IMG/VR virus record: IMGVR_UViG_3300017917_002948
Span: 1-63,577 of that record
Source of the DNA: a virus
Reading direction: 5' to 3' (one strand)
DNA length: 63,577 nucleotides
In this document: one piece after another, positions 8,301 to 30,900 of the stretch
Position numbering within the stretch: position 1 is the first letter of the stretch
How the letters are laid out: each line of letters starts with the position of its first letter
Position numbers and translations under genes: made by a program
The notes under the pieces: generated by a model
Databases searched by the model: none
Seen by the model: the letters and a program-made list of their open reading frames with translations, nothing else
Told to the model about the DNA's origin: nothing

Positions 8301-10154
8301 AATCTTTGTACACATAATTTTGGTCAGTATGGAGGTCCTTGGAGAAGTTCAAGGTACAATGATGTATATTCAATTAGTTCAGAGTTTGTTCCAATTGATG
8401 TCGCTGTAAATCCTCAACCATTAATTACATCTGGAGATGTTTATACTACATACTATACTTGTACTGCAACATTCATGCATTGGAGACAAGCTGGTGAAAC
8501 AAAAGAAGACTTTAGTAAAAACGTTTTTCCACAAAGACAAGGTACAGGTTTAGGAGCAATTTATAATCCTATACGACACATTATGTCAGCACTTGCATTA
8601 GGATTTCCTTGTCAAACAAGTGTAAATGTAGATTTAAGATATGGTAAATATTGGAATAAAAATCAAGTAATAACAAGTTCTGGTTTAAATGGTATTGATT
8701 TTGCAAGTTTTCTATTTGATGAGTATACTGCAAACGATGCATATACTCAAGAAAACAACACTAAAACTTTTACAACTAAACCATTTAATGTAAACTTTAA
8801 TGAAGAACAACCATTTACTGTTTGGGCAAGTGAACTTAAATTAGAAGGTGAAGCAGTAGACTCTTGGAGAACATATTTAATTAATAATCAAAAAGACGTA
8901 GAAGGAATATATGGACCAATTAATAAAATTGTTACATTTAAAGAAGACATTATATCTTATCAAAATAAAGCATTGTGTAAAGTACTTTCTGAAGAAGTAA
9001 GTTCTGTAAACGATAATTCTGGTTCAGTATTTCAAATTGGCTTAGGTGCTGTATTAGTAGGTTACCAATATCTTACAAAAGAAACTGGAACAATTCATCA
9101 ACACTCAGTAATACCTACTGCAGATGCAATATTTCATTTTGATGCAAGATTAAAGAAAATGTTTTCTTTAGGTAATGGTGTAATTCCAATAAGTGATGCA
9201 AAAGGTTTAAATTCTTTCTTTAAAGAAAGTTTAAGTAGTCAGGTATTAGTAGATGATATGCCATTACTTTCCAGAGGTATACATGGTGAATTTGATAGTA
9301 AATATAATAAGGTATATTATACATTTGCTGACTCAATAAAAATAACTTTAGCACCCGGTCAATTATTTCCATTATTACCGTTGTTACCAAACCAAACAAT
9401 TACTTTTACAGGTTGTGTAATACCAAATGCAAAGTATCTACAATTATTAAAAGAGTACACTGTTAACGGAGTAATATTCCAGTTATCATCTCTTATCCCT
9501 ACAGGTAATACTTATACAATTGAGTTAGTCTATAAAAGTGGACCTTGGCAAAATTTGAACAGAGGAAGAAGTGTATTTTATCTTGAAAACAAATATACAA
9601 TTGCTTTTAATAGATTCCTAGAAGCTTATGAAAGTTTTTATTCTTTTACTCCTACTTTATATTTAAACACTGGAAAAAGATTACTTAGTGGAAATCCTTA
9701 CGATTTAAATACTTCAGCTTATACACATAATAGGGGTGACTATGGTAAGTTTTATAATTTACCTATAAAGAGTTCAAAAGTAGAATTTTATGTTACTGCT
9801 GATGGTACTTCAAAAAGTACTTTTAAAACTAACTATTGTGAATTTTGGTCACAAGTATTTGATCAAAACGGACAAGACGTATTTAATGAAACAATAAATT
9901 CAGTTGTGTTTAGTAATGATTATCAATCAACGTTAAATTCATTAGCCCCATTAAACGCAGTATCTTTAAAAAGATTTGAAAGAATGTGGGGTATTAATAC
10001 TATACGTGATTATACTACATCATTACCATACAAACCTTACTTAAGAGATAAGTATCTTAAGGTTGCTATAGAGTATTACAATACAAACAACAATAGGTTT
10101 ATTCTACATAACTGGAATACTGATTTAATAATTTCATATCCTGTAAGCAAATGA
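5319..10154 (+). CDS. Muzzle-like large tail protein (often labelled stabilization protein)
   Basis: This 1,611-residue protein has no signal peptide or transmembrane segment and is beta-rich and Asn/Tyr/Thr-rich throughout. It begins MATISSTYAKGLDRDTSISKL, a start seen in large tail proteins of short-tailed Bacteroidota phages that lie after the ring genes. In crAss-like virions a protein of this size and position forms the muzzle at the tail tip, which closes the channel through which cargo and DNA leave. Here it directly precedes the cargo genes and overlaps the next gene by 4 nt (ATGA). The fold is not provable from sequence; the assignment is from size, composition and position. Confidence 0.65.
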   Translation: MATISSTYAKGLDRDTSISKLTNESIYDALNIDLVTDLGTSTGSIHNHRGNKLDFSLPDRVLSVYKLIIKNLPTSGTITGNISILGSAYPPVVVTISSSTTILDLYNQITSQLPSNVFIVNKNNSNMVFVNIEDSYQLQINPADPLFPYLGISLKAATVDNPVIIGWTMMIEGIVLFTTQKQVLESGNLVINDSKTPNGTTGQIWYIEYDDVEDKVIGTNNGVLVQQTHLKYHGVLNFSLANAIYREAVARYEDVDKANVYWTDNFNPPRVFNIFNPEGFAIEEELLDWKPSIKFSVPIIKKVLNSGSIKVGSYQFAYRMKTNDGGMTQFSPLSKLINITSKKELTTFIDYDGAEPGTDANKSIKLQVSALDLNFDTIEFAVIEYQVKNSPLVYVFKELPITSKKVEVIYTGNEQKVPITIAELVNPRIFFDRVKTFTQKKNRLYPANTKKQTFEIKNWDARSYRFNNAGICKLYTVNGVFQEFNSSVPAQLTALYNLPDVHDAVNPYNDDSGTVYGLLGTVFDFTRDQWWNDFQYKFQTDGVTYGGEGPNVDYKIITKEYLGDTDIYTGKSGVPFNTVLFATPSTENLGVVGQDYDIEGLDGSKNIYIQEIYRSHQIGEVYRYGIVLYNQKGEESFVSWIADIRIPEPREDSQFDLSRVDGINLKLRTYLIEFTIKNVSALIANNPGITGFKIVRKERDILNRNRHGMGVLMAPMGGKVMINGDTYGTGSGPAGANPGTDVYLLTRIQSLIGVGLNDVIQDKLNLPSGSTPAEDAFLQANCPNIFGNMDGLNDPPDYPRIVLPRYNFDFDKRLTSFEYSGRLPILKSPEVDFEKYGNNATHYNIVSRFDWGESAYWTRMCIDDVAVDEVVNHIRNSKAFYVFLSNPVDYGKSLYSNNVIDINSQKTIDVESTVVKTFSSFMNFDYHHIGTYRRAFYDNPSGASSSQHRWNSLAGLGTKMLFTEVQGTKLESDINGDYKDGGLEEFTRTRINLVNLCTHNFGQYGGPWRSSRYNDVYSISSEFVPIDVAVNPQPLITSGDVYTTYYTCTATFMHWRQAGETKEDFSKNVFPQRQGTGLGAIYNPIRHIMSALALGFPCQTSVNVDLRYGKYWNKNQVITSSGLNGIDFASFLFDEYTANDAYTQENNTKTFTTKPFNVNFNEEQPFTVWASELKLEGEAVDSWRTYLINNQKDVEGIYGPINKIVTFKEDIISYQNKALCKVLSEEVSSVNDNSGSVFQIGLGAVLVGYQYLTKETGTIHQHSVIPTADAIFHFDARLKKMFSLGNGVIPISDAKGLNSFFKESLSSQVLVDDMPLLSRGIHGEFDSKYNKVYYTFADSIKITLAPGQLFPLLPLLPNQTITFTGCVIPNAKYLQLLKEYTVNGVIFQLSSLIPTGNTYTIELVYKSGPWQNLNRGRSVFYLENKYTIAFNRFLEAYESFYSFTPTLYLNTGKRLLSGNPYDLNTSAYTHNRGDYGKFYNLPIKSSKVEFYVTADGTSKSTFKTNYCEFWSQVFDQNGQDVFNETINSVVFSNDYQSTLNSLAPLNAVSLKRFERMWGINTIRDYTTSLPYKPYLRDKYLKVAIEYYNTNNNRFILHNWNTDLIISYPVSK

Positions 10155-13100
10155 GTTGGTTAAAAAAATACGATACAGAAGGATCAAATGTAAAAATGAG
10201 TAATGGTGGTCCTATTGGAGGAGGAGAAACTTCTTCTAAATATACTTCTAATACAGTTCCTAAAAATGTAAATCCTAATGATTTACGACCTTCTGATTTT
10301 GTTTCGGAAAAAGATTACATAGATTATTTTAAAAAAGCCGGATACAATTATAATTGTGGAAAAAAGGGATGTGCTGATTTTGCAAATAACTATTCAGGAT
10401 TTGCAGTAGGATTATCTGGAGTAGATAGAGAGCGATGGGATAGAGAAGGTGCAAATATATTATCAGGACATGCTTGGCAAAATTACGGACACATAATAAA
10501 CTCTGGAGGTAAATCTAAATATAATTTTTATAAAAACGAAGGAAATTTAAAAGATTTAAAACCAGGAGATATTGTAGGGTTAAAAAGTACAAATAATTTA
10601 TTTTCTGGAGCATATGATATTTCTGGACAAAATGCTCCTTATGAAGGTGTAGATAATACACATACTGGAGTAGTTGACTTTGTAGATTCTAATGGAAACA
10701 TTTATGTTAAACATAATGTTGGAGGAAAAGTAAGATTTGCAAAAATAGAAAGAATTGATCAAGACCCTAATGTAGAAGGGTGGAGTGTAGTTACAGCTGC
10801 TGAACCAAATTGGGGAAAATATAGTCCTGAATTTTCTTATGATGATGAGAATAAAACTTGGAACTTTAGTCCTTACAAAAGTGATTATGATCCAAATAAT
10901 ATTTTAGGTTTACAATCATCTTCTTATGATATTTATGACGAAACTCTTCCTGGTAATTTATCATCAAACCCAATTGAAAGAAGTAAACAATTAAAGGATT
11001 ATAATTGGGAAAAACCATCAAGAAACAAAAGGAATGTAAAGTTGTTTAACGATAAATTAAACAAAGCATTAAATTCATTAAATTCTAATAAAAAAGAATT
11101 AATGGATTATTATAGATTATCTGAAAATGAATTCAATGAACTTGCTAAAAATACAATAGCAACATTAGGTGTTGAAAGTAAATTTGGAACAAGTGCTAAA
11201 GAAGATTTTAAAAATGAACACCCTTGGTTAGTAAACGTAGCAAAACTTTTAAAAAGAGGAGAGTTTAATAAAGAAGGACTTTCTAAACCTTTTGCAAAAA
11301 ATAAAGATAGTTTAGCTGCCTTTGGGCAAAACTCTTTTGGAATAGGACAAGTAAAACCTTATTCTATAAATGAATATTTTGCAAGTAAATTTGGATTAAA
11401 TTCAGTAGATGATTATAAAGATCCGGCTAAAAATGTTTTAGCTACTTTTGCTCACATGTATGAAGATGTTAATAAAGCAAAAAGGTGGGCAAATAAAAAT
11501 AAAGAACTTGATGAAAGTTTTAAAAACCCTTACGATTTAGCTTATCCTGTTTACAATTCTCCAAGTACAGTATTGTCTGGAAATTTATCAGGACAAGAAT
11601 CTCCTGATAATATTAAGTATAGAAGATTCTTAGAGTATAAAAAAAATATCCCAGTTATAGGAAACATAAAGGAGAGTACTTTTACAGATCCTGTTAAAAG
11701 TTTTTTAAGGCCTGTAGAAATAGTAAATAATAAAGAAATGGTAGATGGGGGTCCTATTTGGCCGAAACCTGCTGCAAGACAGGGATCAGTGCTTTTACCA
11801 GGAGAGTCAAAACCTTCTACTCATTTATACGCAAGTGGTAAATCTGAAGGAAAACATTATGCGTTTCCTACTTTGTTTCAGACAGCTGAAGGAAGTTGGT
11901 ATCAACATGCAGATCCTTTTGAACACTCTTTAGAAATAGGAGAAGCTTTAGAGTTTAATAAAGCAAGACATGCTAAAAAATATGCTAAAGGAGCTTGGAA
12001 ACAAGAAATGGCATATGGAGGCCTTATTAAAAGAGCTGATGGTTCATATTCTAAAAGAGGTCTTTGGGACAACATCAGAGCTAATAAAGGTTCAGGCAAA
12101 AAGCCTACTAAAGAAATGCTTGAGCAGGAACGTAAAATTAAAGCTAAGATGGAGTACGGGGGTTGGTTAAATACTTATGAAGAAGGTGGTCCTATAGAAC
12201 CAGAACCTCCATTATTTGGCGGTACATTAAGACCTGTTGAGATTACTCCTTACACTAAAGACTATCCTTACTATAATGATTTAACTAAAGTTGAAAAACA
12301 ATTTATAGGAGATACTGGTCCTATTGGTAGAAGCATTAAAGGTAAGGCTAGACATGGAGAATACATTGACGTAAATCAATTAAAAAATAATGTAGTAAAT
12401 GCAGTTACTTATCCTGTAATAGGAGCATTACAAGGTATGCAAGTTCCTCAAGCAACAATGATTGAGGGTATAGAACAATTTAGAGGTAACCCTTATGATT
12501 ATTCCAATGTATTACCTAGAGGAGTTATGTACAATAAACAAAGAGCTCCTTCAGATACTTTTTTAAAAGGAACAGGATTAGTTCCTGAACTAGTAGGAGA
12601 CATGGTATTAGATCCTTTGAATTTATTAGGAGTAGGATTTATAAAAGGAGGAATGAAAGATCCTTCTAGGTATACTTTAAAAATGCTTAATAAAGATATT
12701 GCAGATATTTCAAAAAGTACTGCAAAAGGTATTAAGGGTGCCAAAGGGTTAGATAACGCTTATGATGTAGCGCAGTCTGATTTATATAATAAAAAGTGGA
12801 CAAAATTTTCTGAAGCGTTAAAAGGAACAGCTCACCTTTTAGATGAAATACAAGGTGAATTATTACAAGGTAGAATAAATAGAGAATCAATTAAAAAGGG
12901 AAATGAGTGGCTAGAAAGTTGGATAAATAGTCCATTTACTAAACAAAAAATTGATAAAGACATTGATGCTAAAATAGATTTTAATAAACAATTTATAAAT
13001 AATTCTGAAGATCAAATAAACTTTTTAAATTTAATTAAAGAACAATCTAAAAATTTTAAACCAAACAGTAAAGAATATAGTTTATTAAAACAGTTAGATG

Positions 13101-13795
13101 AAAACTTACAACAATATTTAACAATTAATTCAAATACTCCACTAAATTACAATGATTTTCATATACACAAAGGTAATTTCGGAGTAAGTTATGCACATCA
13201 AGTACCTCCTCAATATAGATTTGATGTAGAAAACAATTTGGTAACTCCTTATAATAGATTTGGAAGTTGGATATCAAGAGCAACTAAAATACCACAAAAT
13301 AAAAGAGTTAACACTACAATACATGAAGGTGTTCATGATTGGGTTTCTGAAGATGCGTTTGGTGTTTCAGACATGAGAGGTGTTGCTTTAAAAAACATGA
13401 ATCCTGAAATTAAAAAAGATTTCATGGAATGGGAAAGATATCGTAATTCTGGAATTGATCCTGTTAAAAAAATGGGAAAAGAAAGAGCATATCAAGCTTA
13501 TTTAGCTAACCCTACAGAACAACATGCTAGAATAATGGAATTAAGACATCAATTAGGAATTAAACCAAATAATATTGTAAGTGAAGATAATGCCAAACAA
13601 ATTATAAATTTAATAGAAAATGGTAGGACTACAGTTGATCCAAAGTTTTTAAATGTAATAGATAAAGATCCTAAAAAACTTTCTACACTTTTTAATAAAT
13701 TTTGGGCAGTACCTCCAGCAGCAATAGGGGGAGTAGGTGCATTACAACAAACAGAACAAAAACAAATGGGCGGATGGCTCAACAAATATAATTAA
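10151..13795 (+). CDS. Multidomain virion cell-wall hydrolase/cargo protein
   Basis: This 1,214-residue protein has several enzymatic-looking domains. About residues 60-215 resemble an NlpC/P60 or CHAP amidase, with likely catalytic C74 (GCADFANN), H171 (NTHTGVVDF) and H188 (VKHNVGG). About residues 320-460 resemble a lytic transglycosylase, with E342 in GVESKFGTS and the FGIGQVKP motif near 398. Near the C-terminus HEGVH (1058-1062) is a zincin HExxH motif. The short phrase GGWLN-Y or SWLKKY occurs at the N-terminus, around 680 and at the extreme C-terminus. The protein is probably packaged, helping peptidoglycan penetration during DNA entry and perhaps maturing cargo. Domain calls are motif-based. 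Confidence 0.7.
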   Translation: MSWLKKYDTEGSNVKMSNGGPIGGGETSSKYTSNTVPKNVNPNDLRPSDFVSEKDYIDYFKKAGYNYNCGKKGCADFANNYSGFAVGLSGVDRERWDREGANILSGHAWQNYGHIINSGGKSKYNFYKNEGNLKDLKPGDIVGLKSTNNLFSGAYDISGQNAPYEGVDNTHTGVVDFVDSNGNIYVKHNVGGKVRFAKIERIDQDPNVEGWSVVTAAEPNWGKYSPEFSYDDENKTWNFSPYKSDYDPNNILGLQSSSYDIYDETLPGNLSSNPIERSKQLKDYNWEKPSRNKRNVKLFNDKLNKALNSLNSNKKELMDYYRLSENEFNELAKNTIATLGVESKFGTSAKEDFKNEHPWLVNVAKLLKRGEFNKEGLSKPFAKNKDSLAAFGQNSFGIGQVKPYSINEYFASKFGLNSVDDYKDPAKNVLATFAHMYEDVNKAKRWANKNKELDESFKNPYDLAYPVYNSPSTVLSGNLSGQESPDNIKYRRFLEYKKNIPVIGNIKESTFTDPVKSFLRPVEIVNNKEMVDGGPIWPKPAARQGSVLLPGESKPSTHLYASGKSEGKHYAFPTLFQTAEGSWYQHADPFEHSLEIGEALEFNKARHAKKYAKGAWKQEMAYGGLIKRADGSYSKRGLWDNIRANKGSGKKPTKEMLEQERKIKAKMEYGGWLNTYEEGGPIEPEPPLFGGTLRPVEITPYTKDYPYYNDLTKVEKQFIGDTGPIGRSIKGKARHGEYIDVNQLKNNVVNAVTYPVIGALQGMQVPQATMIEGIEQFRGNPYDYSNVLPRGVMYNKQRAPSDTFLKGTGLVPELVGDMVLDPLNLLGVGFIKGGMKDPSRYTLKMLNKDIADISKSTAKGIKGAKGLDNAYDVAQSDLYNKKWTKFSEALKGTAHLLDEIQGELLQGRINRESIKKGNEWLESWINSPFTKQKIDKDIDAKIDFNKQFINNSEDQINFLNLIKEQSKNFKPNSKEYSLLKQLDENLQQYLTINSNTPLNYNDFHIHKGNFGVSYAHQVPPQYRFDVENNLVTPYNRFGSWISRATKIPQNKRVNTTIHEGVHDWVSEDAFGVSDMRGVALKNMNPEIKKDFMEWERYRNSGIDPVKKMGKERAYQAYLANPTEQHARIMELRHQLGIKPNNIVSEDNAKQIINLIENGRTTVDPKFLNVIDKDPKKLSTLFNKFWAVPPAAIGGVGALQQTEQKQMGGWLNKYN

Positions 13796-15903: not shown

Positions 15904-18543
15904 ATGGCAGTTAGATTTGTCAACCCAATCAGTACACCTTACGAGTCTCAATTTGTACCTCTTCCAATAGAGTACATGGCAAAGAACTTGGAAGCAAAAC
16001 AAAAAGCTTTTGACGAAGGTACTCAAACTATATCTCAACAAGTATTTGACCTACCAGATGTTCCTTGGACAACTAATGCAAATGTTCTTGCTCAACCATT
16101 TATTCAGGAGCGAGATAAGATACTTACCAATCTTCAACAGACAGGTAATGTTAATCAAGCATTAATGCAAATGAACAATTTGAAAAAGAATTGGACAAAT
16201 AACGAACGTGTCAAACAACAACTTGAGTATATTAACTACTATGAACAGTTAAAACCCATTTACCAAAAAGATCCAAACTTATTACAAACAGGTTGGGATC
16301 CAAACTTTATGCAACAACCTGGTCAATGGACTAAACGAGATTGGGCAAAGCAAGCTGAAGAATTTGATGCGTTACGTGGACAAGCACCTGCTTTATATGG
16401 TGACCAAACAGTTAAGTATATAACTGAAAACATGGGTGAAAAATTACGAGGTATCGAAATTGGAAACTCAAAAGTAAGTAACGCAGTATGGGATCCTAAT
16501 GTAGGTAAGTTTAGAGCTATTACTCAAGATGGAAAAACACACTTAATTAGTCCAGAAGATCCTTGGACAAAGAACGCAATTAAAAGTTGGGCACAGCGTA
16601 TTAATGACGAAACTCTTGGTACTGACATTAATGAGAGATATATTCGTGAAGCAAAGTTTGGAAAATTAGCTAGTGATAAACAAACAAGAGGACTTGCAAT
16701 TGAACAATTAATTACTTCAATACTAAGTCCATATTACATGTCATCAACATTAAATAAAGAAACTGATGAGTGGATTACACCTCCTGATGATGGGGATGGT
16801 ACAACAAAATCTTCTGATTATCAATTTTATCCTCACGAAAGTCTTCCTGATTTAAATACTCAAAAGTTTGATGACTTTTATAATGCGATGAGCAATATTC
16901 AATCAGCTGCTCGTAATTATCAAGACGTAAGTATAAATACTGGACTTGAACATTTTGGTTCAGATGTTGATTTTTTAAAAAAATTAGTAACTTATTTTCC
17001 TCAGTCTGGAATTAAACCTGAAGATATTAAACCTGGTTATGTTCTCAAAAAAGATTCTCAAATTTGGAAAGATATCCTTTTTGAAATGAACAATAATAAT
17101 GAACTTATTGAAATAACAGGAGCTGATGGTAATAAGAATTTCTTTACAAGAAAAGAAATAGTTTTAAATGAGTTAAGTAATAAAGCTGTTGAAGAATCTG
17201 CAAAATTACAAAATAGTACAAATCCTAAAGACATTGCAAGAAGTCAAGAATTAAATTCAATTGTAGCTAATATTTCAGAAGCTTATACATTAAGAGAAAA
17301 ACATTCTGAAATTTATGGATTAGTACAAAAAGAAGAACAAAAGGTTTTAGATAATTTTGTTAATAATTATGATTACAAAGGTTCACTTTTTGATCAAGCA
17401 ATAAGTCAAGTTAATCCTGCTTACAAAATGCTTATTGGTCTAAAAGGTACTAGAGAAAAAGTTTTACAAACTATTTCTAATTATGGAGGAAAAGATTTTG
17501 TAAAAGATGTTACCCAAGGAAGTTATGAAGAGGCAATGAATAATGCTATGTACGAGTTTTATCAAAAGACTGGTATAGCTATTAAAAACTTTGTCAATGA
17601 TGATTTTGATTTAATTTATAATAAAAACTTATATAAACAAGAAACAAAAGGTAGACAACTACTTACTTCAGATGAAGAAAGAAAAATTAGACAAGATTAC
17701 GAATTACTAAAAAAATCTGTAGATGATATAAGAAAAACTTATAAGTACGAAAGAGAAAAACATTCTTTAACTAGTACTATTTCTAAAGGTGTATATTATA
17801 CTGTTGACGGAAAAGAGACTGCTGCACCTGTACAACAAATGACTCAATACTTACAAGATTTTAAAACAACTACTCTTCCACAAATGATGGAAAGAATGTT
17901 TGGTAGTGAGTACGATGTTGACGCAGAAGGTTTACAAGACTTATTAGAAAGTCCAATGATTAGATCATCAGTTGATCCTGGGTTTGATTTTACTAAAGTA
18001 AGTCTTGCTGACGGTAAAGCAATTGGATTTGATATTGATGCAACAGATGGTGTGCATGTAATTTATTCAGTAGCACAAAAAGAAGGTGATCAAACAAAGA
18101 ATGCCAAATTTAGATTTAAATTAGATCCAGTTTCATTAACTTTGTTTAAACAAAATGTAATTATACCAATGATTACTGATCCTTCTCAAACAACATCTGA
18201 ACATGGTATATCCTTACTTGTTCAAATGGAGATGGACGCAAATGAAAAAAATTTAATAAGATTAGTTACAAGTGGTTTTGATTTACCTGGAGAATACAAA
18301 CATAAAAAATTAGATGTAAACTCTGCATTAGGTAATTTTGAATTTGATTTAATTTCTACATCAACAGGTGTTGTTTTAGTTAATAGTAAAAATCCTAAAC
18401 AAAAAATACCAGTTTCTAAAAATTATCAATCTACAATGCAAGCAATAGCAGCAATGATTAGGGATAATTTACCCAAGGGGAGTGGAGGTCCCCAAACGCC
18501 GGGAAAGCCCAGCAAGCCAGCGGACAAGACCTGGCTCAGATAA
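15904..18543 (+). CDS. Virion/cargo protein, probably the N-terminal part of a larger product
   Basis: This 879-residue protein is preceded by promoter-like motif copy 2. It is soluble-looking and helical, with Gln-rich stretches (EYMAKNLEAKQKAFDEG, DEGTQTISQQVFDLP) typical of crAss-like internal proteins; no catalytic motif is visible. The last 24 codons differ from the rest: they are encoded by a GC-rich patch and read as a Pro/Gly/Lys-rich tail ending at a TAA at 18541. Removing 80 nt (18464-18543) would join residue N855 directly to the downstream M15 peptidase frame and give a protein of about 981 residues. So the annotated end may be that of a short form only. Confidence 0.65.
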   Translation: MAVRFVNPISTPYESQFVPLPIEYMAKNLEAKQKAFDEGTQTISQQVFDLPDVPWTTNANVLAQPFIQERDKILTNLQQTGNVNQALMQMNNLKKNWTNNERVKQQLEYINYYEQLKPIYQKDPNLLQTGWDPNFMQQPGQWTKRDWAKQAEEFDALRGQAPALYGDQTVKYITENMGEKLRGIEIGNSKVSNAVWDPNVGKFRAITQDGKTHLISPEDPWTKNAIKSWAQRINDETLGTDINERYIREAKFGKLASDKQTRGLAIEQLITSILSPYYMSSTLNKETDEWITPPDDGDGTTKSSDYQFYPHESLPDLNTQKFDDFYNAMSNIQSAARNYQDVSINTGLEHFGSDVDFLKKLVTYFPQSGIKPEDIKPGYVLKKDSQIWKDILFEMNNNNELIEITGADGNKNFFTRKEIVLNELSNKAVEESAKLQNSTNPKDIARSQELNSIVANISEAYTLREKHSEIYGLVQKEEQKVLDNFVNNYDYKGSLFDQAISQVNPAYKMLIGLKGTREKVLQTISNYGGKDFVKDVTQGSYEEAMNNAMYEFYQKTGIAIKNFVNDDFDLIYNKNLYKQETKGRQLLTSDEERKIRQDYELLKKSVDDIRKTYKYEREKHSLTSTISKGVYYTVDGKETAAPVQQMTQYLQDFKTTTLPQMMERMFGSEYDVDAEGLQDLLESPMIRSSVDPGFDFTKVSLADGKAIGFDIDATDGVHVIYSVAQKEGDQTKNAKFRFKLDPVSLTLFKQNVIIPMITDPSQTTSEHGISLLVQMEMDANEKNLIRLVTSGFDLPGEYKHKKLDVNSALGNFEFDLISTSTGVVLVNSKNPKQKIPVSKNYQSTMQAIAAMIRDNLPKGSGGPQTPGKPSKPADKTWLR

Positions 18544-18550
18544 ATAATTT
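18464..18550 (+). other. GC-rich 80-nt gene interruption with direct repeats and hairpins (bypass/frameshift candidate)
   Basis: The direct repeat ATAATTT lies at 18464-18470 and again at 18544-18550, exactly 80 nt apart. Between them 45 of 70 bases (18471-18540) are G or C by hand count, far above the surrounding AT-rich genes. It can form GGGGA/TCCCC (18477-18481 with 18489-18493, seven-base loop), a weaker GGG/CCC hairpin at 18501-18510, and AGCCAG/CTGGCT (18515-18520 with 18531-18536, ten-base loop). The upstream frame stops at 18541-18543 and the downstream frame is open back to 18468. Deleting one repeat unit fuses the two frames. Recoding, a small mobile insert or a chance arrangement are the alternatives. 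Confidence 0.6.
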
Positions 18551-18629
18551 TATAAATACTTACAAAGGTAAAGGTAAATTTACATTTAAATCAACTGATC
18601 CAAATGTTGCTACTAGAGCTACATCTTTT

Positions 18630-18929
18630 TTGACAGATCCTTTAAATGAAGTACCATTTGGAATTACTGTAACAAGTACTGTAAGAACTCCTCAAGAACA
18701 AGCATCGCATTATAAAGATAACCCATTAGAAGCTCCTAAGAATCCACCACATGTTGCAGGTAAAGCTATTGATATACGTGATGATGATGAAGCATTAGCT
18801 TTCTTTTATTGGGTAAAAGAAACACCTGAAGGACAAGCTTGGAAAAATAAATATAAAGCTCAAATATTATATCATACGGTAACAAATGGGAAACCACATT
18901 ACCACATCGAATTTGAATATAAACCGTAA
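18630..18929 (+). CDS. M15-type D-Ala-D-Ala carboxypeptidase/endopeptidase domain
   Basis: The visible zinc-binding motifs are HVAGKAID (H-x6-D) and PHYHIEF (H-x-H), with TSTVRTPQEQ before them, as in M15 peptidoglycan peptidases. Only TTG at 18630 offers a start in this frame, with no ribosome-binding site before it. The frame stays open upstream to 18468 without any ATG, and the residues there (NNFINTYKGKGKFTF, then DPNVATRATSFL) look like genuine protein. The domain is therefore probably made as the C-terminus of the preceding virion protein through the interruption at 18464-18550. It would cleave peptide cross-links in the cell wall during entry, or act as an endolysin if made alone. Confidence 0.65.
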   Translation: MTDPLNEVPFGITVTSTVRTPQEQASHYKDNPLEAPKNPPHVAGKAIDIRDDDEALAFFYWVKETPEGQAWKNKYKAQILYHTVTNGKPHYHIEFEYKP

Positions 18930-18937
18930 AGAAAAGT

Positions 18938-21900
18938 ATGGAAAACTTAAATCCCGGACCACCTGAAAGAGTTGTAATAACTCCTGATATGTGGAATGCA
19001 ATTGTAAATAAAGATAGTGCAACCAGTAAATTAAGAAGGATTCAGGCATCTCAAGATGATCCTTATCTTTCCTCAAGAGAGATGGGTTCAAACTTTACAG
19101 GACAGTTTAGAGAAAGATATGTAAGTGATGAGGAAAGGGAAAAGATTAATCTGTTAAGAGAAAAGACGGGTTATTTAATGAGTCCTGATCAAGATGTCAA
19201 CGAACTACTTGCACAAAATCAATCAAGAACAGATAAATGGTTTAACGGTATTGTAAGATTAACAGGAGTTGCAAGTACTACTCTTGCAGAACCATTTACA
19301 ATGTTAGCATTTGGTTTACCTGATGCGTTAATTTCTTGGGATAAATCAAAAATATACAATAACGAAATTGGTAAATCATATGACGCCCTTAATGAAAAAT
19401 TGAGAGAGGATTTTCCTATATACCAAACTCAAGAGTATCAAGGTATGGATTGGTATGAAAAGATGGGTAAAGCTAACTTTTGGGCCGATTCATTTCTAAA
19501 TGGTGCAGGTACAATGATTGGTGCCATAGGTTCAGGTTATTTAACTGGTGGTATTCTTTCAGGAATGTCAACAGCAGCAACTTTGACTAGAGCAGGAAGG
19601 ATGGCTCAGGCTGCAAGTAAATTCAAAGACATTACAAAAGTAATGGAAACTGCTGCAAAACAATCAGCAGCAATGCAAAGAATATCATTAGCTGAAAAAG
19701 CATTCATTGGCAGTGTTACTGCTGCTGGGGAATCTGCAGTAGAAGCAAGACAAATATTTAACGATACTCTTACAAAACTTCAAACACTTAAAGAAAAAGG
19801 AGATCCACGATATGCTAACTTGAGTGATGAAGAATTAGAAAACGTTGCCAAGTCTGCAGGTAATATTGGTTTCTTACTTAACATGGTTACTGTAGGTTCT
19901 ACTAACTTTGTTACATTAGGTAAAATGTTTAACAGTGGTTGGTCAACAGGTAAAAGAAGTTTAGGTAAGATTGTAAAAGAAGGAGATCAATACGTTGCTC
20001 AGAAATCTTTACTAGATTCAAGAGTTGCTGAAACAGTTAAAGAAATGACTTCAGAGTCATTTCAAGAAGGTATGCAGTTTTCTTACCAAGTTGGTTTACC
20101 ACAGTATGTAATGAACAAGAAAGACAAAGAAGGAACTGTATATGGTCTTGCTAGTTCTATTATGGATGGTATGAAAGAAACACTTGGTTCTAACGAAGGT
20201 ATGGAATCAATTGTATTAGGAGCACTGTTAGGTGGTATAGGTGGAGCAGGAGCTAACTTACTTAATAATGAAAACAAAAGTAAATACGAAAGAACACAAG
20301 CTGCTGTAGATATATTAAACAAATATAAGAATACGGATCTTAAACCATTACTTGAACAAATTGCTTTACAAGGTAACTTTCAAAAAGTAATGGATAACGC
20401 TTTAATCAAAGGTGATAGATTTGAGTATGAGAACGCAAAATTTGCACAATCATTTTCTTATATTAACTCAAGACTTACTGCTGGGTTAAAATCACAATTA
20501 GAAGAAGAAATAGATAGAGTAAGTGATATTAGTGAGGAAGACTTTCAGAAGTTCTATCCTGGTCTTGTTGAACAAGGAAAGACACTTGCTGATTTAAAAC
20601 AAAGTGTCAACGAAATAAAAGGTAACATTAAAAAACTAAATGACACATCAAATTACGTTGAATCAACATTTAGTCTTTTAAATGACGAAGATAAAGAATT
20701 AATGAAGTATGCTTTAGCTTCTGTAGATAACTTTGATCAAAGAATAGGTCAGTTGTCAACAGAGTTAATTGCTCCAAAGATTAATTCTGAAAACGTAAGT
20801 ATGTTTAAGAAAGTCTTAGATACACTTACTAGAACTCCTTTAAGTAAAAAAGAAGAACAAGAAAGAAAAGAGGAGTGGAAAAAGAAAGCTGATGAAGCTG
20901 CAGAGTATGCTAAAGCATCTAAGACCATAGATGACTTATTAGATAACTCTGAGATCACAGGGTTCATGAGTGGTCTTGAAACTAAGTTAAAAGAGAATCC
21001 ACATTTAAGACAAGACACTTTAGATAAGTTAAGTGATCTTATTAAAATGCATGGTAGAAGAGAAGAGTTTCTAAAAGACTACGAAAAGATTGTAACAACT
21101 GGAACATTTACTCCATTTGCTGAAGCAAAAATAAAAAGAGAAATGTCTAGACTCTATGAAGACATTGGTAAACAGTTTTCACTAAGAGGTCAAACATATA
21201 AATCAATTGAGGATTATATAAAAAGAATGACTCCTCAATTCAAAAGAGATTATTTAAAGACAGCATACGGAAACCTTGCTGATAAGATGAACTTCTTTGA
21301 TGCTTTAGAAAAAGCAGACTTTGCTGAAGTTAACTCTTTGCTTTCTAAAGGTACTTTTAATTTATCTCAAGAAGAATTAGAGCAGTTAGAAAACATTGCA
21401 TCAAATCTTAAAGCTCAAGCTCAGACATTATCAAACAAATATGCTGATGTTGATCCAGAAACTTTTGAAACCTTTGATACTGATCCTTCTGAATGGGCAT
21501 CAATTAAACCAGAAAATGACGAAGGTGCTCAAGATGCAGAATTGTACAATGAGATAATAGAAAAACTTAAAGATCTTGATTCAGCAATTCTTTCAGGTAG
21601 TTCAAGAAACGTAGTACAAGAAGATCCAAACGAAGATACAATTAGAAAAGATTTATACTACACGTATTCAAAAGTTGCTCAACAAGTAATAGACGACGCT
21701 AAAGCAAACGAAGATTACGATAACGAACAGAAAGTAGAAGAAGTTTTAGGTGATTTAATTCAGTTAAGAGAAATTCTCGAATCAGTTACTACATCTGAGT
21801 TACCATTTAGAGATGAATTACTTAATCAAATAGAACCTCAAATAAATGAATTAAAACTATTAAAAGTTGAGGTAGCAAAAAGAGTAACCAACAAAGAAGT

Positions 21901-24900
21901 AAAACAAACAAGAGCTTACGATTACGAAGCAAAGTTAAATAACTTAATGTTTGGTATATTCGATGAAGAAGATCCAAAGATGTTTAGTATCCATTTGGAT
22001 CCTACATTAAATTTATTATTAGGAAAGATATTCCAAATATTTGAATCTGACAACAAAGAGAATACTTTAATTCCAGTATTGGAAGAAATGAATAAAGAAG
22101 TATTAGCAGGAAACAAACTGTCTCCTGTTTATTCTCTTATTCTAGTAAGTAAAGTTGTAAGTACACTTAGTCCGGCTGCAAGAGAGTCCTTAATTAAATC
22201 TGTTGAAGAAGTTATTAAGAAAGACTATCAAGATAAAATTAAACAAACGTTTAAGAACTTTGAGAGTCCAATTGAAGCACCAGGTACTCGCCTTGAGCTC
22301 TACAAGAATTCACCATTTGAAAACTTTAAAATACTTATTGATAACTGGAAGAAAGCTAACTTAGCTGAGTTACCTGATTCTCTTTCCTTAGCAATAGATA
22401 AGTTTGCAAACGAGGGTAGTCTTGCTGAACTAAATCATGAAGTAAATAAGTACGATACTGAAGTAATTAAAGAATTAAAGTCAGCAATTAATTTCCATGA
22501 AAACTATATTTCTAAACTGAGATTAGTAAGTTATCTAAACTCTGAGTTTAATATTGCAAAAGAAATATTTAGTGAGGAATCTTTAATTGAATCTAAAGAG
22601 TCTGTAGATAACAATGACTCACCTACTTTCCAACAGTTAAACGCTATTCGTCAAATAATGGTTTACTTGAATGAAGTAACAAGTAACGAACCATTTGAAG
22701 ACATCATGTACATGAAAGGTCCTGCAGGTACAGGTAAAACTTCTTATGTACTTAGATGGTTGTTTAATCTTACTGGAATAGAACTTAATGATGTATTTGT
22801 AGTAGGACATAATGATAGATCCACTAGAACTGCAAATAAAGCCCTTGGTAAGACTACTGAGCCTACATTGGAACAACTACTTGCCAAGCTAAGAGATAAG
22901 TCGTTTAATCAAGAATTAATCATAATAGACGAGGTTAGTGGTATTACTGATACTAACCTAATGTTAAGTTTAGTTGAATCTCTTTCTGAGTTCAACAAAG
23001 ATAGAGTAAGTAAAGGTAAGTCTGCTGTTAAGATGATTACTATGGGTGATCCAAATCAACTTGGGTTCAAAGGTATATCATCAAACATGTTCAATGAACT
23101 TTTACAAAACAGAACAAACAGTGTTCGCATAATCGATCCTATTACAATCAGATATAGAAGTAACGTAAGAGAGGTAGTTGACTTCCAAGATCTCTTTATG
23201 AGTACTGATAAGGATTTAGCTAAAACTCCAAGGATCGTAAAAGTTAATAGTTCGATTCCCGGAATGCCTTTGTTTGGTGTACAAGGAACTAAAGCAAAAG
23301 GTACATTCATTGCAGAAGCTGTAGAAATACTTAAAGACCAAGTAGGTCAAAATAAATCTGCAGTAATTATAATTGAACCAAATGAAAGTAAAAGAGAATC
23401 ATATAGAAAAGCTCTTGACGCAGAAGGTTTAACTAATGTACAAGTATTAGACTATGTTCAAGTACAAGGAGAAACAGTAGATCAAGTATACATTGATATA
23501 CCAAACAATACTACTGAGTTCATGAACATGAATGCTTATAATAAAGCAATCTATACTGCAACATCCAGAGCTCGTGATTTTATCTTCATAGATAACTTTG
23601 ATTTACAAACAGTAGTTGATGAATCAATTAGTGAACTGGCAGCTAATCAGCAAGAACAGTTAGTTAAAAAATACGAAACTGTTTCTGAGCAAATTAAAAA
23701 GGAATCAGCTTTAGTTAGTAAGTTCATAGAAGATGCTGCTAAAATTAAAGAATCAGTTGAAAAGACTCCTACTGAAGAAGAAACTGAAGAGGAGACTGAA
23801 GAAGAACCACAACCTGAAAAGCCAACTGAAGAAGAAGATATTACAGATGAGATTGCACTGAAAGAGGAAGAAGAAGACTTTACTGATGAAGAAGAAAGTT
23901 TTGACGATGAGTTTGCTGTTGTTGAGTCTGCTGTACAAGATGAACCTGTTGATAACACAGAGTATCTTGGTGAAACTGTAACTCCAGTTAAATCAGATAC
24001 TGCAAAAGAACTGATGTATCCTACAAGGGAGCAGTTACTTTTCAGAGCTGCACCCGGAACTAGATTTAGACAGATAGTAAATCCTGGAGATAAGATTAAA
24101 ATTATCCCAGTAATGCCTCAAGGTTCTAAAGATATTAACGATGTTAAGTTAACAATATTTGCTTCTAATGGTAAAGATGGTTTTAGAAGAATTGCTGTAC
24201 TAGATAGAAAAGAAGTACAAGACTTAGGTATTGATGTAACTAAAATAAAAAGAACTGATACACTTTCTGAAACTCAATTAACTAAGTCAAGAAGTGAGTG
24301 GTCTACAGATGTAAACCTTGATTCTATTTCATTAGGATCAGGTACCATTACTCAAGCGACTCCAATGTCAATTGTTTATGACTTTAAGTCTTCTAAGAAG
24401 TTTTCATTAGAGAACGTTGTAAACAAATACTTACTTAGATTGTCTGAGAGTCCTAATCATGCAGCACTTAAAGATAAAAACAAGAGAGACAGTATAATTG
24501 AAAATAATAGTAAGATTGTAATATTCAATCAAAAACAAGTAACTCGCATTAGTCAATCTAAAGAAAATGAAATAAGTGGATTTGTACCAAAGGCAGGTAT
24601 ACCTTATTTAGTAATAACCGTAAACAATTCTAAACATTATGTACGGTTAGCTCCAAGAAGACTTAATGCTGAGATACATTCACAATACGTTGCACCTGCA
24701 CAAGAGTTCATCGCTAAAGCTAAACAGTTTAGAGACATCCTCAATAAGTTAATTTGGGGAGACGATGAATCAAGATATGACAACAACGTTACTAACTTAG
24801 GTCAAAGAATATTTAATCTACCTGTATTGTATTTTGGTGAAGGATCTTTGACAAGACCTGAGATACAAACTTACATGATGATTAAAGAGATCTTAGGTGA

Positions 24901-27900
24901 CAATACTCCATTTACCTTTGGAGATGCTTCTAAGTTCTTTGTAGATAAACTTGGTGACAAGGGTTATAAAGATTTCCAAAACCTTGCTAAAGAAATATAC
25001 AACTTAGTATATACTGAAAAGGTTAGCCCAAGTGAAAGTCAACTTATTAAATTGGTAAAGCGTACTACAAAAGGTGCGAAGTATCAAATTAGTGAAGATG
25101 ATAAGATATACAACATATATCAAGACATCAGAGGTAATGCCATCATAAACTACAATGGTGAGAACTATCCTGTATTGTCACACAAAGCTGAGAAGTTTAC
25201 TGAAGAACAACTAAGAGATTACATTACTAAGAAGAAAAACTTAACAGGTGAGAAACTAAACGAAGAAGTTAAGAAGTACAAAAAAGATAGTAAAGGTAAG
25301 TATACTGTAAACCTCTATAGAATAAAACAAAGATATGGTTCAGAACTATTTTTAGAGTTTGATGAGTTTACCTTTATACAAAAACATCCACACGGAGAAG
25401 TACAAGAAATACTCAATCAGTTAGCCAAATCAAATAAGATGGCAAACGATGTAGTATTTGGTACTACACAAAAAGTAAAAGATAAGTTTAAAAGAAAAGC
25501 TAAGAACCTTTTACAAAGATCCTTTACATTTCAATCAAGCAATGGTAGTAATCAATTTAGAATGCCTACAGCTGATAGTAAGGGATACGTTTCTAAATCT
25601 ATTCTTGACTATGTAAAATGGTACGAAGCTAAAGAAAGAAAAAGAAATCCACTGTTTGAAGGTGCACCTGATGGTAACGTAACTGAAGATTACTTCTTCA
25701 ATACAGATAACTATTCATTAGAAACTAAACAAAGGTTTGCTGACATGGTTCACAGACCGTTAACTATTGAAGACTTAGAAACAATCTTTTCATTTGGAGA
25801 GAATGGTGATTCTAATGTAAACGAAGGGTTTGGTTTAAGAATGCCAATCAAACGTTTTGGTAAAATTAAAGTAAAGGGTGAAGATCAAAGCTTTTCATTT
25901 ACTCATAGAGAAGATGGTTCAGAGAGTACATTTACAAACAACAAGACTCAAAAAGAAATTGAGGAAATGATGTTTGAAGATACCTTTGAAGATCTTAAAC
26001 CTACAGTAATTAAAGTTGACTTTGACAAAGTAAATAAACCTACAGAACCTGAACCTACTGAAAAGAAAGAAAACAAAACAAGAAAGAAAGATGCTGATGA
26101 CTTCTTGGGTGACATTCTTGATTACGCTGGTGCAAGGGGAGTAAAGGTAGAAGAAGTATTATCTTCTGGAGTAATCCCACAGGAAGACGTTGTAGAATAC
26201 ATTAAACGCTTTATACCTAACGTTAATGACTTCCAAGTAAGATTTCTTACTAGAGAACAAATGCGTGCAAGAGAAAAGAGATATGGTTTCTACGCAGTTA
26301 AGGAAAAAGTAATCTACTTAGAGTTAGACGAAGAAGGAAACGTTCCTAAGAGAGTAGTTCGTCACGAATTATTCCACATGGTATTTAATGAATATCTGAC
26401 TGATCAGCAAAGAAAACAATTGTACGCAGCTGTTGAGAAACAAAAGTCTGGATTAAACTCTTATCAAAAAGAAGAATGGTTAGCAGATAACTATGAACTC
26501 TGGGATAAGAAAAAGAAATCTTTCAGTGGAATTATTCAACAACTCTTTGATTGGGTACGGAAAGTATTCAGATTAATATCAAAGAATCCTGTTACAATAA
26601 CTGAATTGTTTAATAAGATTGAACGTGGTGATTTCAAAACCATAGTAAACTATAAGTCACAAGGAGGATCATTTGAAAAGGGTTACATTAACTTAAGAGA
26701 TACTTTTAAGAATCCTTACTACTATGAAAAAGCAAGAGACATTTTCTACAAAGGAATGGCTCAACAAGTTGACGTAACTAAAAGATGGTTTACTTATAAA
26801 GATATTGAACGTGAGATTAAAGAAAAAGGTTTAAGGTTCTTTGTAAGTAAAGAGGAAGCAATAAACAACGTATTCAATACTTTGATTCCTGATACTATTG
26901 AGAACCTAAAAGGTAAGATTGAAAGGGGTGAAGGTAATTTAGACAACAACAAGTTTGTTCTTGAATCTTTACAGTTGTTATTAGACAACAAAAAAGCTTT
27001 CCTTAATGATATATACGACAACATTAAATTTGATAAGAAAACCGGTAACGTTTTAATTGCTGACGAACAATACGAATTGTTAGTTAACATTGAAGATACG
27101 GAAGCTGATACTGAAGCAGAGGAAGAAAATCAATTCTACGAAAAACAATTTGTAGAAAATGATAAGTACAATGCTGAAACAAAAATAAACAAAACTACCA
27201 AATACTTCTTGTCGACGATATTTATACAAGAAGGTGGTAAGTCTTATCCTGTGAATCCTTCAGTTGCTTTTGTAAGAACTGCAAAGATACTTAACAGTAT
27301 AAGAAACGACAGAGAAGATACTGACTTCTTTACAAGACTTAACAAAGTAACGTATAGTAATCCTGTAGATGAAGCAATCCGTAAAAGATTACTTGCCATT
27401 TACTCATTAGAAAGCTATGTAAGCGACTTACAATCTGACGAAGACTTTAAGTATAGTAATGGTAAGAGAGTAACAGGAGAGTTTGCATACGAAACAATAT
27501 TTGATGAGGGTACTGGTTACAGTTCATCTAATCTTGTATTCAAAAGAAAAAACAGAGTAGTTGCCAGAAGAATAGACTTTGGTTCAGTAGAAGAAATGTA
27601 TGAGGAAATTCTTAGACAAGAATTTGGTAACAAACCTTTTACTGAGGTAGATAAGTTTAAGTTAGACATACTTAACAGAAAGGTTGCTGCTTCTGATATG
27701 CTTTCATCAATCTACAGTAGCATAGCAAGTCTTAGAGAAAAGAATGTAATGTACGGTCAATCAGATTATCAATTTATAACTGACTTCTTAGTTGAACAAA
27801 TACCTGATGAGTTTGTAGAATTACAAGCAGAAGTAGAACAGTTAATTGATGAGATAGAACAAAACTCACCGGTAAGTATTACTACAAGATCTGGTAAAAC

Positions 27901-30900
27901 TTACAGATACTTAAAAATGTTTATTGACCATACTAAGGTTCAATCTCATAACTTACTTAAGAATCAATTACTTAGTAGCATAAACTTATTTTCAAATACT
28001 GACTTTTCTAAAATTAAAACGAAACCAAATCTCGAAGAAAAGAAAAAGGCTCTTGAAGATTTCTTTGAAAGTGTAAAGTTAATGTACAAGGGTGAAAACT
28101 TACTTGGAGATTTTACTGAAGTTTCTGTTAATAACATTATAGATGACTTAGTATATCTTTCAGAAGAGATTAAATCAATTCAAAAGAATCTAAACAAACA
28201 AGTAAATAAAAAAGAGTTATCATTAGATGAACTTGAGAAAAGTAAGATAGAACAAATAAATAATTTGTTTACTAGCCAATACACTCGTTTAAATAACATA
28301 AACGCGTTGTTTACATCTAAGACTATTGAATCAGAAAGATCTACTTCCTACAGAGGTAAAGATGGTGAAATGAGATGGTCTTTAGAGTTGTCAAGTTATG
28401 CTGTAGATATTTTCAATAATATATTTGATGCTTTAAAGTTTTCAGATAAAGCTAAGATTAGAAAAGTGTTTACTAACTTTAAAAGTAAACTATTTGAAAA
28501 CAATCCTATAGTAAACGAAAAGATAAAAATCCATCAGTTAATTGATCATGATGCTCTTAGTCAAAAGGACGAGTCGTTTGTAACTAATTACAAAAACGAG
28601 AATGAATCCAGTTGGTTGATTAGAAACTTGTTCTATTCCTTTGGAAGTAAACAATTATCTAAGTCTACTAAAGGACGACCTACATACTTCCATTTCTTTA
28701 ACACGATGTCAAACAAACCAAGAACAAACGCTTTGGAAGTTGACATGTTAAGTGCAAACTCAAAGTCTAAGTATGGAATTAAACAAGCGATCATAGATGC
28801 AATTAAGCATGAGATCACAAGAGCAAACATTAATGACATTAACGATAAGAACTTTAATAAGAATAAGAAAGTAAGTCAACTCCCAGGAATTGAAACTATA
28901 CCTGAGATCAGTGTACTTAAAGATGAGAAAGCTCTTTCTGATTATGCAGATAAAGTAATTGCTGCTATTGAAACAAAATCTGAAAGAATGATTGATTTTA
29001 TTATTGATAATAAGATCCAAGTAGATGCATTCTTACCTAAGATATACAAGGAGCTTTCAAATCAAGGTGGGGTATCAATGTTCAGTGATAAGTTCTTAGG
29101 AAAAGATGGTTTACTTAAATCTGAATATGCAAGTGATTACAACCTTGCAAGTAGAATGTTCATAAGAGATTACAAAGTATCTAGAGATGAACTTAAACCA
29201 CTTATAGATCTTTATTACAAAAACTACTTTGTAAACAATTACTTTGCTAACATGATGGTAGTTGGTGATCAAGCATTCTACAAAGGTAGCTACGACATAA
29301 TTAAACGTATGTCAATAGTATTTGCTACTGGTCAAAAAGGTAGAGTAAGTAAAGATGCATTACCTGATAAATTTAAAGTAATTGTAGCAAAGGATCCTGA
29401 AGGTCAACTTAGTGAAGAAGTTAAGAAACTGTTCCCTCACTTACAAAATGCAAAAAATTGGGACGAAGCAGATGGTCAAGGTTTTGTAATTAAGAAACGT
29501 GTACAAGACTTTAAGAAAGGTTTTGGAAGAGATTCTAATTACTCTGTTACAATGAAACCTGTTTACTTTGGTCAAGACGAACAAGGTAAACCTACTGCTT
29601 TAAAGTATTCTTCTATTGAGATTACTGATGAACTTATGAATAGTTCACCTTTCTTTAGGAACTTAAATAGATTAATGGAAGCAAATAATGTAGATGAGTT
29701 TGTGTTTGCATCTGCAGTTAAAGTGGGTATTCCAAATACTACATTCGATACTCAACTACTTACATTAGAAAACTTTGATCCTAAATCAATCAACGTAACA
29801 GATTCTGTAACTAACTCAATACTTACTTTAAGTAATGAGAACTATAGAATGCAGTTAAATCCAAGATCTTCTGTAAACAAAAACCTTTCTAAGACAAGTC
29901 AGTTATTCTATACTATTGATACGTTCTTAACTGGAACTAAAGAAGCAACTGATATTGAAGCTGCAATAGGTAAGATAACATCTTATGGTTATACTAAGTT
30001 TAGTAAACTCTTTAACATTTACAGTTTAAGAGACGATAAAGATAGAAGAAGTAGACTTCGTAGATTAAGACAATACTTAAGGAGTACTTCAGTAAAAAAT
30101 GAATCAGACAGAAGACTTGTTGATTTCTTAACTAACGAAAAGATTAGCTTTGACAATCCTGTTATTGCAGAAAAAGTATTTAGTGCAATAGCTTCTTTAG
30201 TACACAAGTCTACAGTAGGGTTTAAGTTTCCAGGTGCTAAGCTTGTACTTCAAACATCTTACGGATTACTTGAGGGAACAGGATTAAGAAAGCCTCAGTT
30301 AGTTTATGGACAGAATGGAGAGTTTTATGCTGAAGCATACTTACCAGATGTATTCCAAAATGAATTAGGTGATTCACTTGCAGGAGGACAATTGTATTTA
30401 ACTGAAGAGAAGTTTAAACAAATAAAAGATAAGTTCTCTGCTACTAAAGATGAACAAATCAAGAAACAACTTGAAGATATAACTAAAGCATTTGCTGTTC
30501 GTATTCCTACTACAGGCATTCACTCTGCAATACCAATTAAAGTAATAGGATTCTATCCCTCTAAGTCTGGTAACGATAACGTTATTATTGCCCCAAGTGA
30601 GTTAGTATTCTTACATGGATCTGACTTTGACATTGACACATTGCAGTTGTATCGTCAAGAAGTTGCTAAGAAAGATTTTGCTATTGATTACATTGTAGGT
30701 AAAACTAAAGAGACAATAGTATTATCTGAAAAGAATGTTCCTTTTGGTTATACTAAAACTGTAGATAATAAAGGTAAGATATCTTTTACTAAGAACCTTA
30801 CCGACAAGTATATCAAATCAATAGAAACTTTAATAGCAAGTTACGATAACTCTCTTAGTGATCATTACAAAAAGAGATATGAAGAAATACAAAAGGATCT

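Follow-up and report, generated by a model that had tools for sequence, protein, structure and literature searches.

A short GC-rich stretch at the 3′ end of a crassvirus-type cargo protein gene is very probably a programmed −1 ribosomal frameshifting signal, judging by what divergent relatives have kept of it. The gene lies in the window, by which we mean the whole 63,577 nt viral sequence analysed (IMG/VR record IMGVR_UViG_3300017917_002948). The features of the locus are:

15904–18543, + strand: frame-0 gene, an ORF of 879 aa; crassvirus cargo-protein-2 homologue (by synteny and N-terminal profile)
18468–18540, + strand: GC-rich overlap, open in frame 0 and in the −1 frame; the only place where a −1 shift yields a fusion
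18483–18488, + strand: Shine-Dalgarno-like TGGAGG, 12 nt 5′ of the slippery site; candidate 5′ stimulator
18501–18507, + strand: slippery heptamer G_GGA_AAG, in phase with frame 0; kept in nine distinct loci
18504–18929, + strand: −1 frame module, a linker plus an M15-like peptidase domain (HVAGKAID and HYH motifs), with no ATG
18515–18536, + strand: stem AGCCAG/CTGGCT with a 10-nt loop, 7 nt 3′ of the heptamer; candidate 3′ stimulator
18541–18543, + strand: frame-0 stop codon TAA; the normal product ends in ...PADKTWLR

Between positions 18468 and 18540, 45 of 73 nucleotides are G or C (0.616, versus 0.317 across the window), and just 10 of about 63,500 windows of 73 nt in the whole sequence are equally GC-rich. 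Near-misses are confined to this area and the contig start, where the only other comparably GC-rich stretches (58–351) fall in a gene that matches tail fibres, among them a collagen-like family. The initial annotation correctly described this GC-rich segment, the flanking ATAATTT pair (18464–18470 and 18544–18550) and a peptidase frame without ATG. Cutting out 80 nt does, as it said, connect residue N855 with FINTYKGKG. From this it suggested translational bypassing as in T4 gene 60, with take-off at an AAT near 18467 and landing on the matched AAT 80 nt further on. The matched repeats and the GC-rich, hairpin-capable segment would suit such a bypass. However, a 7-mer is repeated 60–100 nt downstream at 570 of 63,470 window positions (~1%), and at 29 of 2,530 inside the gene, which places the 80-nt-spaced repeat near chance level. 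Unlike in gene 60, no stop codon adjoins the proposed take-off codon. Hairpins do form when the whole segment is folded, but they are modest (z = −1.56) and not decisive. The segment reads LPKGSGGPQTPGKPSKPADKTWLR and then stop in frame 0, and FTQGEWRSPNAGKAQQASGQDLAQINNFINTYKGKG in the −1 frame; being open in both, it is a coding overlap and not a non-coding gap.

The peptidase frame is −1 relative to the upstream gene, open from 18468 and closed by a stop at 18929. In the overlap, frame 0 reads CCG GGA AAG CCC and thus contains G_GGA_AAG at 18501–18507, an in-phase X_XXY_YYZ heptamer within a stretch where the −1 frame is open. This heptamer is reported to be highly shift-prone in E. coli, and the spacers to a 3′ structure that are commonly studied measure 5–9 nt (PMC5009743). 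A one-base slip back gives GGG AAA, then GCC CAG CAA, and the predicted fusion (slash at the junction) is ...GGPQTPGK/AQQASGQDLAQINNFINTYK..., 1008 aa in total. The length of about 981 codons given earlier needs correction, because the junction is at GK/AQQASG. The two frames would indeed be joined into one product, as first proposed. A +1 slip at CCC_C (codons GGT CCC CAA) was rejected because the module sits in the −1 frame. Stop-codon reassignment was no help because the frame-0 gene and the module are in different frames.

The two proteins of the window had no matches in named phages. Direct searches with them (IMG/VR and phage records) yielded no relatives, nor did searches of phage records and GTDB genomes with the proteins of the relatives. 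Relatives were reached through the neighbouring cargo-1 gene, a conserved motif of which led to 80 loci with related cargo-1 genes. Among these, L058 has both parts in the −1 arrangement (frame-0 protein 23% and module 54% identical to those of the window), and its junction reads ATG GGA AAG CCC. Iterated profiles brought in L003, L006, L007 and L013, then L083 and L088. As an independent check, L109 was retrieved by the peptidase module alone; it has GTG GGA AAG in phase, and its −1 frame opens just 3 nt before the heptamer. L006 equals L087 over the junction, L110–L112 are mutually identical across the region compared, and L110 has the same module as L109 behind a differing upstream gene. 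Counting identical and shared-module groups once, we obtained nine distinct loci (the window and eight relatives).

In all nine, GGGAAAG (GGGAAAA in one locus) is in phase and 21–51 nt before the stop codon. The frame-0 proteins of the eight relatives are only 14–23% identical to that of the window, and retention of an in-phase G_GGA_AAG at such divergence supports frameshifting. In L006, L109, L003 and L088, the −1 frame opens 0–6 nt 5′ of the heptamer, which fixes the slip point. The scan covered 411 ORFs from the window and fetched loci, each 200 codons or longer and together comprising 283,586 codon positions. GGGAAAR occurred in phase 28 times, 8 of them within the final 60 nt of the ORF, and these 8 are precisely the eight family members known before L109 was found. 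The background chance of GGGAAAR in the final 20 codons of one gene is 0.0014; as the loci are akin and not independent, multiplying such chances across loci gives a descriptive figure, not a strict probability. Of the 52 ORF pairs in which the −1 frame continues open, 9 had any of the scanned slippery heptamers (XXXAAAN or XXXTTTN), and in 8 it was GGGAAAR. With nine distinct loci, the background control and the independently found L109, conservation of the site across divergent homologues exceeds chance. Other homologues, including L009, L016, L034, L021, L025 and L054, showed no such extension in the scan, and Pfam found no in-frame hydrolase in those that were tested.

These relatives bear directly on the other readings of the locus. 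L058 and L109 have the gene pair and the heptamer without the 80-nt repeat, which, with the dual-frame segment and its in-phase slippery heptamer in the window, makes bypassing between matched AAT codons very improbable. The initial annotation had also named a small mobile GC cluster; such a cluster, or an intron-like insertion, would interrupt the gene and either be removed or have broken it. The sharp GC contrast with the surroundings is what such an insertion would produce. Against it, the segment has no second copy in the window, its two ends have no exact match in IMG/VR, and an Rfam search returned nothing relevant. The overlaps of the relatives are also GC-rich (0.35–0.62 versus 0.27–0.32), but they are unrelated in sequence and have the signal alone in common. 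The search for a relative with both parts in one frame, the fused empty site that an insertion implies, found none, and we give a mobile element very little credence. What the relatives do back is −1 frameshifting within 18468–18543, which the same annotation had listed as an option. Given that the window is a single uncultured contig, the split between the frames could also be an artefact of sequencing or assembly, or the mark of a formerly continuous gene in decay. This we regard as extremely improbable and already refuted by the sequences of the relatives, since the −1 layout with intact modules recurs in nine distinct loci, which come from different metagenome records.

The peptidase could instead be a separate gene that starts at its own non-ATG codon and is never fused. 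The sole start-like codon of the window module is TTG 18630, 129 nt beyond the slippery site, and in L003, L007 and L088 in-frame GTG codons follow the heptamer at a distance of 15–39 nt. With the reservation of these GTG codons in three loci, a separately started peptidase, which the initial annotation had named as evidence against its reading, was looked for and not seen in any of the nine loci. In L058, the module frame beyond the heptamer is devoid of ATG, GTG and TTG codons, and the first ATG is at least 198 nt downstream in L006, L013 and L083. Independent initiation would also leave the conservation of the heptamer without a reason, and we consider it most unlikely.

Candidate stimulators of the frameshift were found on both sides of the heptamer. 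A Shine-Dalgarno-like GGAGG or GGAGA is located 9 nt upstream in L058, L003 and L013, and is absent in L006, L007, L083 and L088. Downstream, we compared the stems directly because MAFFT alignments of the junctions mis-register their 3′ arms. L006, L007, L013 and L088 have a common CCTCA.../...TGGGG stem that starts exactly 6 nt after the heptamer and shows compensatory changes. The sixth pair is G-C in L088 and L007 and A-U in L013 and L006; the seventh is C-G in L013 and A-U in the other three; the ninth differs between L088 (U-A) and L006 (C-G). L003 has an 8-bp stem 6 nt 3′ of the heptamer. The 6-bp stem of the window is modest, as 3% of shuffles are equally good, and no stem stands out in L058 or L083. 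Stems are thus strong and 4–6 nt away in L003, L006, L013 and L088 and weaker in the window and L007, which indicates that the stimulators vary among members. The modest window stem, the lack of GGAGG in four relatives and the in-frame GTG in three count against frameshifting.

Different modules are found behind the signal. An M15-like domain is −1-joined in three distinct loci (the window, L058 and L109), with 54–61% identity among the three. The sequences HVAGKAID and HYH, which the window and L058 have both conserved and which are also present in L109, fit the M15 zinc-ligand motifs HxxxGxAxD and HxH. Profile matches are weak: the module matches the phrog_465 endolysin at 3e-7 in L058 and at 0.003 in the window, and a match to the L-alanyl-D-glutamate peptidase of PDB 2mxz has E = 0.24. 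We therefore call the domain M15-like, on the basis of motifs and these matches. L003 instead has an M23 peptidase (6e-29), the one module for which assignment to a wall-cutting family is firm, followed by a domain also found in L083. This common domain of about 150 aa (SGIRSEGGKGK...YINRYAP; L003:12257–14410 and L083:9466–11367) has 49–51% identity and no Pfam match, and it stands behind M23 in L003 and without M23 in L083. L006, L007, L013 and L088 have mutually related domains that we label lysozyme-like from a sequence pattern and a non-significant fold match (T4 lysozyme on top, E = 2). AlphaFold predicted structures with medium confidence (pLDDT 70 and 76), and fold searches with these models, including the M15-like one, gave no significant match. 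In L088 (9190–10314), a further stretch with His-rich motifs (GDHIHISF, NSHHYKQF...KGLDIN) comes after the lysozyme-like module and is possibly a second peptidase-like domain.

L109 and L110 (2407–5312) have 0 differences in 329 sites of the module and 390 in 2,494 sites (16%) of the upstream gene. An identical module behind differing genes fits exchange at the junction, and the pattern appears to be a sign of recent exchange or recombination there. As the identity of the module reflects such recent exchange, the comparison is silent on constraint, and we dropped it as a constraint test.

In the window, the muzzle gene (PF25731, 3e-124) is followed by a large ORF, then a cargo-1-like gene, the 879-aa gene and a 5024-aa ORF akin to crassvirus RNAP-associated proteins. 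The successive genes gp44-gp45-gp46-gp47 of crAss001 have a comparable order; cargo proteins 1 and 2 correspond there to gp45 and gp46 and are both expected to participate in the trans-envelope channel (PMC10172136). The frame-0 gene thus has cargo protein 1 on one side and the RNAP-associated giant gene on the other, the position expected for PF25712. The N-terminal profile of the family reaches L004 and L050, both of which match Pfam crAss_CARGO2 (PF25712). The window protein itself has no direct Pfam cargo-2 match, and hhalign gave no significant match to crAss001 gp46. Because of the synteny and this intermediate link, we call the frame-0 protein a crassvirus cargo-protein-2 homologue.

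We propose that most ribosomes would end the 879-aa cargo protein 2 at the TAA at 18541. At CCG_GGA_AAG, a minority would have the tRNAs on GGA and AAG slip one base back onto GGG and AAA, aided by the upstream GGAGG and the downstream stem. The shifted ribosomes would read GCC CAG CAA and make the 1008-aa protein with the predicted M15-like peptidase C-terminus. Each virion would then contain some copies of the ejected protein that bear a predicted peptidoglycan-cutting domain, for use as cargo and DNA cross the envelope; action of the enzyme during ejection is likely. More broadly, we lean toward the view that, in this uncultured crassvirus lineage, the conserved frameshift site at the end of cargo protein 2 serves as a docking point for unrelated cell-wall enzymes (M15-like, M23, lysozyme-like and others), which are exchanged there. 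The rate of slipping would set the number of enzyme-bearing copies per virion, and the wall chemistry could be swapped with the channel protein unchanged.

T7 gp16 is also an ejected internal virion protein with a peptidoglycan-cutting domain, but there the domain is in frame, in every copy, and no frameshift is involved. Frameshifting in phage virion genes is already known from lambda G/GT, T7 gene 10 and the kuravirus capsid (PMC5009743, PMC9965538, PMC7881722). The major capsid gene of kuraviruses (phiEco32-like; phages YF01 and Privateer) has a −1 frameshift at GGGAAAG near its stop (PMC9965538, PMC7881722), the identical heptamer in a similar place, and the minority product has a long C-terminal extension. 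The extended product of Privateer was seen in virions by mass spectrometry. The kuravirus gene differs in encoding the major capsid protein, and its extension is not reported as a cell-wall enzyme or shown to be exchanged for unrelated domains. In lambda G/GT, ribosomes likewise slip by −1 at a heptamer close ahead of the stop and make short and long forms at a fixed ratio, but the product is an assembly chaperone absent from the virion and the T domain is structural, not enzymatic (PMC5009743). T4 gene 60 also makes one protein from two out-of-frame parts (PMC5009743); unlike there, matched take-off and landing codons are not conserved here, take-off has no adjacent stop and a non-coding gap is absent.

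In the open-licence literature searched, we found no report of frameshifting in crassviruses, or of any cargo or ejection protein to which a frameshift joins exchangeable cell-wall enzymes. A hydrolase added to a cargo protein by frameshifting would be a concrete, testable part of the passage of crassvirus cargo and DNA through peptidoglycan, and gene finders miss the enzyme because it has no start codon. It would extend known phage frameshifting (tail chaperones, capsids) to a site of enzyme exchange behind a fixed signal, an arrangement that can be scanned for in other phages.

When examining the neighbouring genes, we noted a weak CHAP match (E = 0.019) in the 1214-aa ORF between the muzzle and cargo-1 genes (10151–13795). 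A short segment of this ORF, at about residues 615–675, is highly conserved in many crassvirus-type contigs. The single 5024-aa ORF (18938–34012) has a Walker-A/helicase-like stretch, and its relatedness to RNAP-associated proteins is in its first part.
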